A DNA stretch of 64,000 nucleotides from NCBI GenBank assembly GCA_023910675.1, contig JAAVWC010000015.1:1-64000 (forward strand), read 5' to 3'. The stretch is from Gemmatimonas sp. (GTDB lineage Bacteria; Gemmatimonadota; Gemmatimonadetes; Gemmatimonadales; Gemmatimonadaceae). A program made the translations under genes and the position numbers. The notes under the pieces are model-generated. The model saw nothing but the letters and a program-made list of their open reading frames with translations, ran no database searches and was not told where the DNA came from. Shown here in pieces: positions 297 to 13,360 of this stretch (position 1 is the first letter of the stretch; each line of letters opens with the position of its first letter).

Positions 297-713
297 CGGG
301 TCGGGGTCTTGGTCGGGGTCGTGGCTATGGTCTGGGCACAGCCACGACAGTCGGGGTACCGCCACGACAGTCGGGGCACTGCCACTGCAGTCGGGGTCTC
401 CCTGCGGTCGGGGTCTCGGCCGGGTCGGGGTCTTACGGCAGTCGGCGTGGCGGTCTTGGGGCGGCGCTTTGCGCGCTGGTCGGGGGCACACTGTCGCGGC
501 TCGGGGTAGGGTCGGGGCCCCGACCTTGACCCCGACACTTTATCCCCGACCCCGACCCACGCAAGCGAAGCGTCGCGCCCCGACCCGACCGAGACCCCGA
601 CCGTTTGTAGACCCCGACTGTGGTGGCAGTACCCCGACTGTCGTGGCGGTACCCCGACTGTTGTGGCTGTGCCCCGACCCCCACCCGCAACCCCGACCAA
701 GACCACAACGGGG
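297..713. repeat. Palindromic GTCGGGG repeat element 1 (type A)
   Basis: This gene-free stretch is one long imperfect palindrome centred on GGTCGGGGCCCCGACC near 510-525. The left arm carries GTCGGGG at 350, 370 and 390, exactly 20 bp apart, within the unit GCCACNACAGTCGGGGNNCT. The right arm mirrors this with CCCCGAC at 612, 632, 652 and 672, again every 20 bp. The ends are perfect 15-bp inverted copies: GGTCTTGGTCGGGGT at 305-319 and its complement at 690-704. It lies between two convergent genes. Open frames through it translate to low-complexity Gly/Thr/Val/Arg/Pro peptides and are not genes. Confidence 0.93.
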
Positions 714-726
714 CGAGCCAATCACG

Positions 727-2094
727 CTACTGCAGTCCCGCCATGCGTCGCAGGGTCGGCCCAACCCCTTCTGCGTCGAGCAGCCTCATGCCGAGGTGCA
801 CGTCGGACACCCCGCGCTGGACGCGATGCGTGAACAGCGGTGTCGGTCCGGCGATGTCCACCTGCATGTACCAGCACGAAACACCACGATTGGTGGTCGA
901 ATTATGCGCAACATCGGCGAGGTGTGACGCTATGACGAACGTGCCGTACGGAGCGTTCGCGAGTCCCTGAACGAGCAAGGTAGTGGCTTGCGTCGCGTCG
1001 GCGATGTTGGTGCCGCGAAACACCTCGTCGAAGATCGCCGCGACCGATTCGCCGCGTGCCACGGCTTCAACAATCGTATGCACACGGCGTATTTCCGCGA
1101 GGTAGAGACTCTCGCCGCGCTGCAGGTTGTCGCGTACGGTGATCGATACCATCAGTGTATCGAACAGCGGCACCATAGTCGAGTCTGCGGTCACGTTCAT
1201 GCCCAGATGTGCGAAGTAGATGGCAACACCAAACGCGCGGAGCAGCGTGCTTTTGCCGGCCATGTTGGGGCCGGTGAGAAAGAGCACCCGTTCCTGCGTG
1301 GACAGCGCGACATCGTTGGCGATGCCCTGCGGTAGCAGCGGATGGCGGAGCCCTTCGAATGACACCTCGGCGGCACCGCGCGGCGCCAGCTGCGGCGTGA
1401 TTCCACCAAAGGACTCCGATGCGGTGCCCAGCGAGCAGAACGCGTCGAGCTGCCAGATGGCGTCGATGAGCGCACGCAAGACGTCGCGAAGTGGTATTGC
1501 CGATGTCTCGGCGTGAAGAGACCAGCTTCCGTCAGTTATCGTGCCACGCACCATTCCATCAAGCCCGGCGAGTGCGTTGGTGTTGTTCCGATCGACTGCC
1601 GCATGCAGCGTCGCGACGCGCGGGTCGTGCACGGCGTTGGTAAACGCGAAGACAATACGCGCGAATGCCGTGTCATTCGGCAATGTCGCAAGCCGCGGCT
1701 GCAGCAGCGCGCACTGTCGCAGCAATTCGTCGACTCGGCGCAGCTGCCCGGTGAGTTCGGCGACGATGTCCCGATTGCGGAGCGCGAACACCGCCCGCTC
1801 CACGGCAGACGTGGGGAGCAGCACGTAGTTACTCGCCAGATAGCGGCCGACCTGCACTGCGAGTCCGTGCAGCTCGGACCAGCGAACCTGCGGTGACAAC
1901 GTGGCGAGCGCCGGCAGCAGTCGTTGTCGCGCCTCGATGTCGGCAATCGTATCGAGTGGTGTCGCGATGAGGCGCTTGAGCGCGTCGTGTGCCGGCCGCG
2001 CATGGGTGTGATCGAGTAGAGTGGCCAAGGGCCATTGGCCAGCGGTGTCGGGGAGCAATCCGAGTTCCGCGAGGGAGGTTGGCTCTGCGCGCAT
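727..2094 (-). CDS. MutS-family ATPase lacking the mismatch-recognition domain
   Basis: 455 residues. The C-terminal half is a MutS domain V ATPase: Walker A GPNMAGKST at about residues 273-281, and a Walker B/signature stretch FDEVFRGTN in place of the DEIGRGTS of housekeeping MutS, followed by an IASH motif. The N-terminal half matches the helical lever/clamp region. There is no N-terminal mismatch-binding domain with the Phe-x-Glu motif, and the protein is about half the length of MutS. Such short MutS relatives are common in Bacteroidota and related phyla and their role is unclear; canonical mismatch recognition is unlikely. It is flanked by repeat elements 1 and 2. No clear ribosome binding site precedes the ATG at 2094. 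Confidence 0.85.
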   Translation of the reverse strand: MRAEPTSLAELGLLPDTAGQWPLATLLDHTHARPAHDALKRLIATPLDTIADIEARQRLLPALATLSPQVRWSELHGLAVQVGRYLASNYVLLPTSAVERAVFALRNRDIVAELTGQLRRVDELLRQCALLQPRLATLPNDTAFARIVFAFTNAVHDPRVATLHAAVDRNNTNALAGLDGMVRGTITDGSWSLHAETSAIPLRDVLRALIDAIWQLDAFCSLGTASESFGGITPQLAPRGAAEVSFEGLRHPLLPQGIANDVALSTQERVLFLTGPNMAGKSTLLRAFGVAIYFAHLGMNVTADSTMVPLFDTLMVSITVRDNLQRGESLYLAEIRRVHTIVEAVARGESVAAIFDEVFRGTNIADATQATTLLVQGLANAPYGTFVIASHLADVAHNSTTNRGVSCWYMQVDIAGPTPLFTHRVQRGVSDVHLGMRLLDAEGVGPTLRRMAGLQ

Positions 2095-2145
2095 TGGCGA
2101 TCAATGAACTGTGAAGGAGATTGCTCTGTAACACCCGAACCACGC

Positions 2146-11376: not shown

Positions 11377-12914
11377 TGCGACACAGACTTGGTATGCAGC
11401 TCCGTCGTACATGGTGCACGACGGCCCTGCTCATGGGTGGGTCGCTGGCTGCGCCCGCGCAGGCGCATGCCCCTGCCGAGGACAACACGCCAGTCGCCGA
11501 ACGGCGGCGACTGCGTGTGCTGCTCGTGGTGTTCGACGGGTTGCGTCCCGATCACATCACACCGTCGCGCATGCCGCATCTTGAGGCGCTGCGGGCGGGC
11601 GGTGTGATGTCGTGGCAGCATCACTCGTTGTTCCCTACCGTCACGCGCGTGAACGCGAGCGCCTTGGCGACCGGCACGGGCCCGGCCGGCCACGGCATTC
11701 TCGATAACAGCATCTTCCTGCCAAGCGTGAGCCGTCGCGTGTTGAACACCGGCGACGCCCGTGACATGCTGCTGGCCGACAGTGTGCTGGCGGGGCGCCT
11801 GCTGACCGCGCCGACGCTCGGCGCACGACTACGCGCGGCGGGCAAGCGCATGATGGTGGCGAGCGCCGGCTCGTCGGGATCGGCGTATCTCTTCGCGGGT
11901 GGCGACGGCACGCCCGTGGTGAATCCGGAACTGGTACTCCCGGCGGTACTCGCGCCTGCTGTCACGCGTCTGGTGGGGGAGGCACCGCCCGACGCATCGC
12001 CGAACCTGGGCCGCAATGCCTGGGCCGTCGACGCGTTACTGCGCGTAGGCATCGATTCGCTCGACGTGGATGTGGGATACCTCTGGCTTTCCGATCCCGA
12101 CCACACGGCTCACGGCGCCGGACTCGGAAGCACGCTTGCCGATTCGTCGATACGTGCGGCGGATCGCGAGTTCGGTCGACTGCTGGACGGGCTCCGCACA
12201 CGCGGGCTCCGCGATTCGGTGAACGTGATCGTGGTCTCCGATCATGGGTTCTCCACGCATGAGGGACACACGAACGCGTTGCGCGCACGGCTCGGTACAT
12301 TCGCCGACAGTGTGGTGATTGCGGGCAGTGCGGTGCATGTGCGCCGCGGCGGCATGGCCACACGCGATTCCGTCGTGCGCACGCTGCAGCAATGGCCCGA
12401 GGCGGGTGCGATTTTCACCGCGTCCGATGGTGCAGGACCGGGTGCCGTTCGCGGAACGGTGCCAGGAACGCTGCCGATGAGCGCCATTGCCTGGCAGCAC
12501 GCGCGTGCCGCCGACGTGCTCTTCTCCGCGCAGTGGTCGCACGCGGCGAACAGTGCAGGGCACAAAGGAACCACGCGCCAATCGGGGGTGGCGGGGCACG
12601 GGACGTCGAGCCCGTACGATATCACCGCGACCTTCGTTGCGGCGGGACCGGCGTTTCGCGCCGGCGTTGTGGCCGCGACGCCGAGCAGTAACGCGGACGT
12701 CGTGCCGACGGTGCTGCATCTGCTCGGGCAACCGTCCACGCCGGCAGGGATCACGGGACGGCCGCTGCTCGAACTCCTCACACGAGGCAAGGCGGCGCCG
12801 GCGGCAATCCGCGACACCCTGACCGCAGAGGTTCCCGGCTATCGAACGGTCATGTACCGCACACGGGTCGGCGGAACCTTGTACCTCGACTCTACCCGCA
12901 CGGTTCGCCGCTGA
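11376..12914 (+). CDS. Secreted type I phosphodiesterase/nucleotide pyrophosphatase (alkaline phosphatase superfamily)
   Basis: 512 residues from ATG 11376; ATG 11394 is an alternative. The signal peptide ends near APAQAHA. Alkaline-phosphatase-superfamily metal and nucleophile motifs are present: VVFDGLRPDH (first metal Asp), SLFPTVTRVNASALATG (nucleophile Thr in the NPP-type FPT motif), DPDHTAHG (second-metal Asp/His) and VVSDHGFSTHEGH. It should cleave phosphodiester or pyrophosphate bonds of nucleotides or lipids outside the cytoplasm. It is translationally coupled to the TonB-dependent receptor. Confidence 0.88.
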   Translation: MRHRLGMQLRRTWCTTALLMGGSLAAPAQAHAPAEDNTPVAERRRLRVLLVVFDGLRPDHITPSRMPHLEALRAGGVMSWQHHSLFPTVTRVNASALATGTGPAGHGILDNSIFLPSVSRRVLNTGDARDMLLADSVLAGRLLTAPTLGARLRAAGKRMMVASAGSSGSAYLFAGGDGTPVVNPELVLPAVLAPAVTRLVGEAPPDASPNLGRNAWAVDALLRVGIDSLDVDVGYLWLSDPDHTAHGAGLGSTLADSSIRAADREFGRLLDGLRTRGLRDSVNVIVVSDHGFSTHEGHTNALRARLGTFADSVVIAGSAVHVRRGGMATRDSVVRTLQQWPEAGAIFTASDGAGPGAVRGTVPGTLPMSAIAWQHARAADVLFSAQWSHAANSAGHKGTTRQSGVAGHGTSSPYDITATFVAAGPAFRAGVVAATPSSNADVVPTVLHLLGQPSTPAGITGRPLLELLTRGKAAPAAIRDTLTAEVPGYRTVMYRTRVGGTLYLDSTRTVRR

Positions 12915-12918
12915 CTCC

Positions 12919-13360
12919 GCGGGTGTGGTCTGGGTCTTGGTTATTGTCGGGGCACTGCTACAACAGTCGGGGCACGGCCACTACGGTCGGGGCACTGCTA
13001 CCACAGTCGGGGTCTCAACACAGTCGGGGTCGATGCCGGGTCTGGGGTTCCCCACAGTCGGAGCGGCGGTCTTGGGGCGGCGCTTTGCTGGCGGGTCGGG
13101 GTCGGGGTCGGGGTCGGGGTCGGGGTCGGGGTCGGGGTCGGGGTCGGGGTCGGGGTCGGGGTCGGGGTCGGGGTCGGGGTCGGGGTCGGGGTCGGGGTCG
13201 GGGTCGGCCCCGACTTCGACCCCGACAGTGTTACCCCGACCCGACCGGGACCCCGACTGTGTTGAGACCCCGACTGTGGTAGCAGTACCCCGACCGTAGT
13301 GGCTGTGCCCCGACTGTAGTGGCTGTACCACGACTACTACCCGCAACCCCGACCAAGACC
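12919..13360. repeat. Palindromic GTCGGGG repeat element 5 (type B, 19 hexamer copies)
   Basis: It lies between convergent genes. The arms are nearly identical to element 4, but the central array has 19 uninterrupted GGGTCG copies at 13093-13206 (114 bp) instead of nine. The centre then switches to GCCCCGACTTCGACCCC, and the right arm ends with ACCCCGACCAAGACC at 13346-13360. The pure GGGGTC array has G-tracts of four separated by two bases, an ideal G-quadruplex pattern. Confidence 0.95.

Follow-up and report, generated by a model that had tools for sequence, protein, structure and literature searches.

A stretch of 64,000 nt of Gemmatimonas sp. DNA (the window) carries five giant G-rich palindromes, members of a family dispersed through the genome from which the window comes (G000, a metagenome-assembled genome (MAG) that is 85% complete). 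Genome comparisons show, at the level of sequence, that these elements stand at sites that are empty in relatives, share halves with one another, and lie at the ends of genes that were inserted or lost and at an end of an inversion. With moderate confidence we interpret them as giant non-autonomous intergenic palindromes, similar to repetitive extragenic palindromic (REP) and terminal inverted repeat (TIR) sequences, that act as recombination and insertion sites. Because the elements differ between relatives and bracket inserted genes, they seem to point to a repeat of REP/TIR type rather than to fixed chromosome architecture.

G000 was compared with G008, G017, G005 and G015, the four relatives that carry the family along with it, and with G028 and others of the genus; wider sets comprised 30 genomes of the genus, 61 genomes round that of the window, and 84,980 species genomes. 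L-numbers below denote fetched genome stretches, and C-numbers denote contigs of G000.

The giant palindromes and their family

All five palindromes listed by the first-pass annotation of the window are present, and none is assigned to a strand: element 1 at 297..713 (arms 329-430 and 578-679), element 2 at 2221..2641 (arms 2245-2347 and 2507-2609), element 3 at 5812..6139 (arms 5818-5945 and 6009-6136), element 4 at 7678..8060 (arms 7705-7805 and 7933-8033) and element 5 at 12919..13360 (arms 12939-13046 and 13234-13341). Complementarity between the two arms is 83% in element 2 and 86-90% in the other four. When up to two mismatches are allowed, the unit pattern AGTCGGGGNNCNGCCAC has 32 matches in the window, 30 of which lie inside the five elements (shuffle mean 1.3), and the 20-bp period was recovered independently by Tandem Repeats Finder.

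The multi-copy family proposed at first pass is real and far larger than five. A search of G000 with element 2 gave 83 matching pieces, grouped into 32 places: 27 two-armed elements (one with a shortened right arm), two elements cut by contig ends (C28:1 and C49:13589), and three decayed copies (C2:71023, C10:140301 and C11:114612). Element numbers are similar in G008 and G017.

An element is about 300-500 bp long, with more than 100 bp of phased tandem units in each arm. It reads as a tip (present in part of the copies), three units, a 17-bp step, an inner box, a (GGGGTC)n tract and a GGGG/CCCC apex, followed by the mirror image; the three units are 20 bp each, GTCGGGG-Y-AC-N-GC-Y-AC-N-AC-R, and the 17-bp step is the fourth. 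Polarity is constant, the G-rich GTCGGGG coming first and the C-rich CCCCGAC last, with the exception of stray heptamers at some cluster edges. Inner boxes such as GCGCGGCGCTGCGCTGGCGCGTC occur in many copies, and their core, GCGCTGGC or TTCGCTGGCG, in 19 of the 27 two-armed elements. The hexamer tract ranges from 1 to 21 exact units; by Tandem Repeats Finder and unit count, it has 8 in element 4, where it forms a G-quadruplex-type sequence (7852..7906, plus strand), and 18 in element 5 (13093..13207, plus strand). A G-quadruplex motif was found in 23/27 elements. Folded as single-stranded DNA, element 2 reaches -181.6 kcal/mol, versus -101.6 in shuffles. An Rfam search returned six microRNA matches, all far under gathering scores and taken as chance, and the elements are not CRISPR arrays, as their units are contiguous, vary mainly at every third base and have no unrelated spacers between them.

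Long palindromes are usually unstable in bacteria; here, dozens of giant ones persist with a strict unit phase. Loss of the SbcCD nuclease is unsupported as the cause of this persistence: an SbcD-type match was found in 29/30 genomes of the genus, the five carriers included, with 25 of the 29 matches, among them those of the carriers, scoring below the family cut-off.

Empty sites, cargo genes and distribution

At the locus of elements 1 and 2, both G000 and G008 have an element, a gene with MutS domain V (cargo A; 727..2094, minus strand, Pfam PF00488) and a second element. A single giant element takes the place of both in G017. In G028 the outer genes are about 76 bp apart and element-free, and in G005 a gap of about 275 bp between them holds another kind of palindrome; in none of these three genomes does cargo A stand between the same neighbours. 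G015 has another neighbour there, and its MutS gene is found elsewhere, beside a decayed right arm. The palindrome in the G005 gap (L128 2160-2450) has (ACGGCAG)n arms and is perhaps a member of a second family favouring the same gap.

The locus of elements 4 and 5 is similar. In G000 and G008 the two elements bracket cargo B, which consists of a gene for an outer-membrane beta-barrel protein (8188..11376, plus strand; PF25183, PF13620) and a gene for a type I phosphodiesterase/nucleotide pyrophosphatase (11211..12914, plus strand; PF01663; given as the longest open reading frame (ORF), start not fixed). G017 has one element there and no beta-barrel gene, while in G005 and G015 the locus is element-free, the matched neighbours being about 74 and 87 bp apart; G028 has no element, but its left neighbour is missing too. 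The site of element 3 is likewise element-free in G005 and G015 (52 and 133 bp). A third element-gene-element arrangement in G000 lies on C30, where a 6-kb segment between two elements ends at those elements. The corresponding neighbours in G015 and G005 are within 74 and 89 bp of each other, and the segment itself is located elsewhere in both genomes, with no element in the fetched stretch.

Elements that bracket cargo are unusually alike. Among 325 element pairs, with a mean arm identity of 84%, the pairs around cargo B (elements 4 and 5, 97.5%) and cargo A (elements 1 and 2, 95%) rank first and second; the C30 pair stands outside this count, and its left arms are 94% alike. Halves are shared as well: positions 5963-6135, in element 3, match the right half of element 2 at 98% identity.

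Further rearrangements have their ends in elements. G015, which carries a diverged form of the giant element, contains a 7.1-kb stretch (L127 2627-9686) whose two ends fall exactly on the GGGG|CCCC apex of a palindrome; G005 has this palindrome intact, and at the left end of the stretch there is an extra (GGGGTC)n run. The stretch encodes type III-like restriction-modification proteins, namely a Res protein of helicase type and an N6/N4 DNA methylase, along with a DUF3800 protein. A gene of about 295 aa located between a half-element and an element in G008 (L215 4039-4926) is missing in G000, where one element is left (L062 about 4337-4449); G028 keeps this gene without any element. Finally, G017 has an inversion relative to G000, the one end seen lying inside an element (L202 4238-4592); G028 is arranged as G000.

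These arrangements suggest a mechanism in which the hairpin and the G-quadruplex tracts of (GGGGTC)n would make the elements prone to breakage and recombination. Homologous recombination between copies could then pick up, drop and flip genes and leave behind an element-gene-element order. Elements coincide with gene gain, gene loss and inversion when related species are compared, and may therefore be a driver of genome plasticity in this little-studied phylum.

The family was found in a few freshwater bacteria of the Gemmatimonas group. The exact unit was found in 6/30 genomes of the genus (one of the six with a single match) and in 7/61 genomes round that of the window, where G045 and G022 have one match each and G015 three; carrier status here rests on exact-pattern matches, which may overlook diverged elements in other genomes. 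Among the 84,980 species genomes an exact two-unit pattern gave 44 stretches in only three MAGs: 24 in C8_MAG_00034, 19 in RE-15aug16-119 and one in Gemmatimonas sp. CoA8N_M110. Viral contigs had no exact two-unit match, plasmids and phages had no match to element 2, and a phage or plasmid origin is not supported. An rpoB tree of 23/30 genomes (G008 is not among them) places G028 as sister to G000 and G017 with support of 100/100, and G005 with G015 as sister to these three. G028 has no match to the giant unit, a pattern that implies two gains of the family, or one gain and one loss.

Unit phase and base-level constraint

The fixed 20-bp phase noted at first pass holds without exception: the step from unit to unit is 20 bp in 375/375 non-redundant cases in stretches of five genomes, counted with spacings of 13 to 25 bp allowed, the next exact GTCGGGG required and redundant places removed. 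Within the unit, whose consensus was profiled from 48 arms (L060 and L075_1958 excluded), variation follows a three-base rhythm. In 51/52 arms of 26 G000 elements, positions 8, 11, 14, 17 and 20 are off consensus in 281/765 cases and the remaining positions in 16/2193 (0.7%); positions 4-5 of the first unit, kept separate from both classes, are off in 33/102. G008 and G017 show this rhythm too; the arm finder used there selects on invariant bases, and its position profile is thus biased towards such a rhythm.

The free positions are also those that differ between species. When the window elements were compared with their G008 orthologues over 9/10 arms, 37/135 free and 5/405 other positions differed; the left arm of element 3 is omitted from this count, as its G008 copy is short by one whole 20-bp unit, and the raw count with all ten arms is 46/150 and 17/450. 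The 400-bp flanks of the same elements are 3.5 to 18.5% different. Copies may exchange sequence by conversion and thereby feed the free positions, so the orthologue differences cannot be read as a simple mutation rate.

The arms are constrained sites, because variation is almost confined to every third base. A coding origin of the pattern is rejected: with a unit of 20 bp the frame of the free positions shifts from each unit to the next, and the rhythm restarts with every unit rather than following a reading frame. We know of no precedent for freedom almost only at every third base. The sole explanation that we can offer is a protein that would touch fixed bases, and we infer from the constraint that the 20-bp site array of each arm is probably bound by one protein. 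The rhythm amounts to a sharp prediction about such a binding protein. As to the array bound by a protein or nucleoid factor suggested by the first-pass annotation, the base-level constraint is strong, as expected of a bound array; the binding protein and the nucleoid role are putative.

Arms of the same element (own arms) are 87.7% alike, versus 83.8% between elements (0/20,000 permutations as high), in 26/27 elements (L075_8470, with its right arm cut, is out, as are the decayed L068 and L069, removed earlier). The own partner is the best-matching arm in 13/26 elements, and free positions agree in 67% of own-arm comparisons versus 51% between elements. A strict hairpin is therefore unsupported as the selected feature, own arms differing at a third of their free positions, and exchange between arms or elements fits better than strict selection on pairing.

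The same constraint would be expected if the elements were protein-bound arrays serving the host in nucleoid structure, partition or chromosome organisation, maintained by host selection, with rearrangements as a side effect of copy number. We judge this unlikely. It would account for the unvarying 20-bp step (375/375), for a deviation of 0.7% once the every-third-base positions and positions 4-5 of unit 1 are set aside, for the 5/405 versus 37/135 contrast in nine of the ten orthologous arms, and for the location of elements between called genes or overlapping their ends, as judged with a crude home-made gene caller that discards ORFs mostly inside an element. Against it stand the patchiness of the family, with the exact unit in 6/30 genomes and none in the sister G028, the element-free sites in relatives, and hexamer tracts ranging from 1 to 21 units.

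A bolder, rather doubtful idea is that the arms serve as a DNA address for a putative protein contacting every 20-bp unit in three-base rhythm. The palindrome would then be a docking site, and cargo, a defence system included, would enter at the GGGG/CCCC apex or between two elements. If so, the elements would represent a new cassette-like bacterial gene-acquisition system built on giant palindromes. In integron cassette arrays, too, genes lie between imperfect palindromes and are open to gain or loss; their attC sites carry conserved core sites, and a dedicated integrase goes with them.

Candidate transposases, related repeats and other explanations

For the REP/TIR-like interpretation, we consider with less confidence that the primary spread may have been due to a single-copy Y1 (HUH) transposase of REP-associated type. 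A Y1 transposase (PF01797) is encoded in 8/30 genomes, one copy each: the five carriers plus G013, G023 and G024. It is the one enzyme family seen to accompany the elements, being present in 5/5 carriers and 3/25 others (Fisher p 0.0004, not corrected for descent). Four of the Y1 proteins match the REP-associated family NCBIfam NF047646 under its cut-off (59-72 of 80 bits), and solved structures gave no sequence match to the Y1 protein. The gene in G000 (L149 1225-1872; G000:C1 about 358.1-358.7 kb) is located between inverted GGGGTCAGAGTC repeats in a TIRtron-like unit, its flanks being inverted units of GGGGTCAGAG type. GGGGTCAGAG belongs to a dispersed, often palindromic family with 101 matches in G000 that is also found in G008, G017, G005, G015, G025, G024 and some others. 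Where GGGGTCAGAG clusters are given with both orientations, the G-rich one comes first and the C-rich one last, as in the giant elements. What the giant elements and the repeats flanking Y1 have in common is this polarity and the GGGGTC hexamer, not the unit. A link between Y1 and the giant elements is likely but unproved.

In TIRYT or TIRtron units, as described earlier (Di Nocera et al. 2013, PMC3733652; subclass 2.1, PMC6006769), a Y1 HUH transposase gene lies between inverted G-rich repeats of consensus GGGGWSAS, which can form dispersed families. On that description, the Y1 gene of G000, flanked by GGGGTCAGAG repeats, conforms to the consensus. The giant elements differ from it: they are 300-500 bp long, their 20-bp units GTCGGGGYACNGCYACNACR do not fit GGGGWSAS (the conserved core is GTCGGGGYAC / GTCGGGGTC), they hold (GGGGTC)n tracts and bracket cargo genes, and they were not found flanking a Y1 gene. 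They are nevertheless dispersed in inverted pairs in which the G-rich member precedes the C-rich one, a polarity seen here and not taken from PMC3733652.

REPs are given in PMC3733652 as 20-40 bp long with a GTAG or CGTC tag. Like REP, BIME and REPIN repeats with their REP-associated tyrosine transposases (RAYTs), the giant elements are intergenic, palindromic, multi-copy and patchy between relatives, and a single RAYT-type PF01797 gene is present in G000 and in each other carrier. Unlike REPs so described, they have arms that each comprise more than 100 bp of phased tandem units, well beyond a 20-40 bp unit, and the transposase gene is not flanked by giant elements in any of eight Y1 loci. 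CGTC occurs within the inner box (read by eye, not as a tag). The giant elements thus work like REP/TIR repeats but depart from REPs in size and in not flanking the transposase, and from TIRYTs in lacking GGGGWSAS. A further parallel is the pilE guanine quartet of Neisseria, a G-quadruplex sequence that PMC3547852 links to gene conversion between repeated copies. The giant elements, with their (GGGGTC)n tracts and shared halves, may be similar in mechanism; pilE is a single locus serving antigenic variation, and no such role is seen for the giant elements. In agreement with the first-pass annotation, searches of an open-access library, judged by titles and abstract starts (subscription papers and preprints being outside its scope), gave no description of such a family.

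Several observations weigh against recombining REP/TIR-like elements spread by Y1. The neighbouring elements at C4 and at C24 show no special likeness, and own-arm pairing is not strictly kept. For cargo A and B, gain in G000 and G008 is not told apart from loss in G017; the outgroups are without both at these sites. Inspection by eye of the compared sites, at which relatives have diverged, revealed no target-site duplication. With respect to Y1, G013, G023 and G024 have the transposase and no giant-unit match. The giant arms of G005 and G015 are the same as elsewhere, yet the Y1 protein and its flanking unit in these two genomes are clearly different. The eight fetched Y1 loci contain isolated heptamers only, with no giant arm or GTCGGGG array. 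GGGGTCAGAG has no match in the window even with one mismatch; among the checked loci it lies inside one G000 giant element (L058), beside or inside one giant element each in L084 (G008) and L097 (G017), and 185 bp from another (L074).

It is quite unlikely that the elements are ends of a DNA transposon, their arms being multi-site ends like those of Tn7 or Mu, the palindromes cargo-less ends, and the G015 locus a transposon with restriction genes. Three equal 20-bp sites per arm in inverted order would suit such ends, as would the left arm - 7.1 kb - right arm order in G015 compared with the bare palindrome in G005, and the tip GGTCNTGGTCGGGG, which among the 27 elements is found close to 12 left ends, one of these internal, and to 8 right ends. 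However, whole palindromes and not single arms bracket the window cargo, and the three scanned G015 cargo proteins have no transposase domain. In a transposase screen limited to PF01797 and PF09299, the Mu/TnsB-type PF09299 was found in 3/30 genomes (G008, G021 and G015) and not in G000 (85% complete), G017 or G005; a TnsB/MuA-type transposase is rejected as the mover, as its distribution does not follow the elements.

Bidirectional transcription terminators, or hairpins protecting mRNA, are an improbable account of the family. The fold is very stable, and convergent context is more frequent at elements (10/27) than at other gene pairs (20/109). The other 17/27 G000 elements are not convergent (10 tandem and 7 divergent), and the same crude caller reproduces the three convergent, one divergent and one tandem contexts that had been reported for the window. 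A scan restricted to short loops with a T run found one terminator-like site in the five elements and 5 in the region, versus 7.0 in shuffles, and what is constrained is the sequence at fixed positions, not pairing. The doubt voiced at first pass about a simple terminator role was justified. An assembly artefact of metagenome bins is barely credible: several contigs do terminate inside elements, but arms occur in the interior of contigs of 206 kb (G005) and 301 kb (G015), and all five window elements, whose absence from independent assemblies had been named at first pass as a refuting finding, recur at the same places in another MAG, G008, with 92% identity.

Other repeats were observed alongside the giant elements. 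A (GACGGC)n / (GACTGA)n hexamer tract (5747..5817, plus strand) adjoins element 3. Two G000 stretches, L180 and L181 (C2 144.5-150.5 and 174.5-185.5 kb), have clusters of short palindromes, e.g. GGGGTCAGAGTCGTTGAACGACTCTGACCCC, several within a few kb, and in G025, a genome with no Y1 transposase match, 12-bp tandem GGGGTCAGAGTT arrays are arranged as palindromes (L190-L194). The window also contains a 14-bp tandem repeat, GCATGACGAACGAC, at 40436-40490 (3.9 copies, 97%) and two copies of a possibly coding 30-bp repeat, ATGCGCGGCCCCGGCATGGGTGGCCCCGGC, at 60838-60899.

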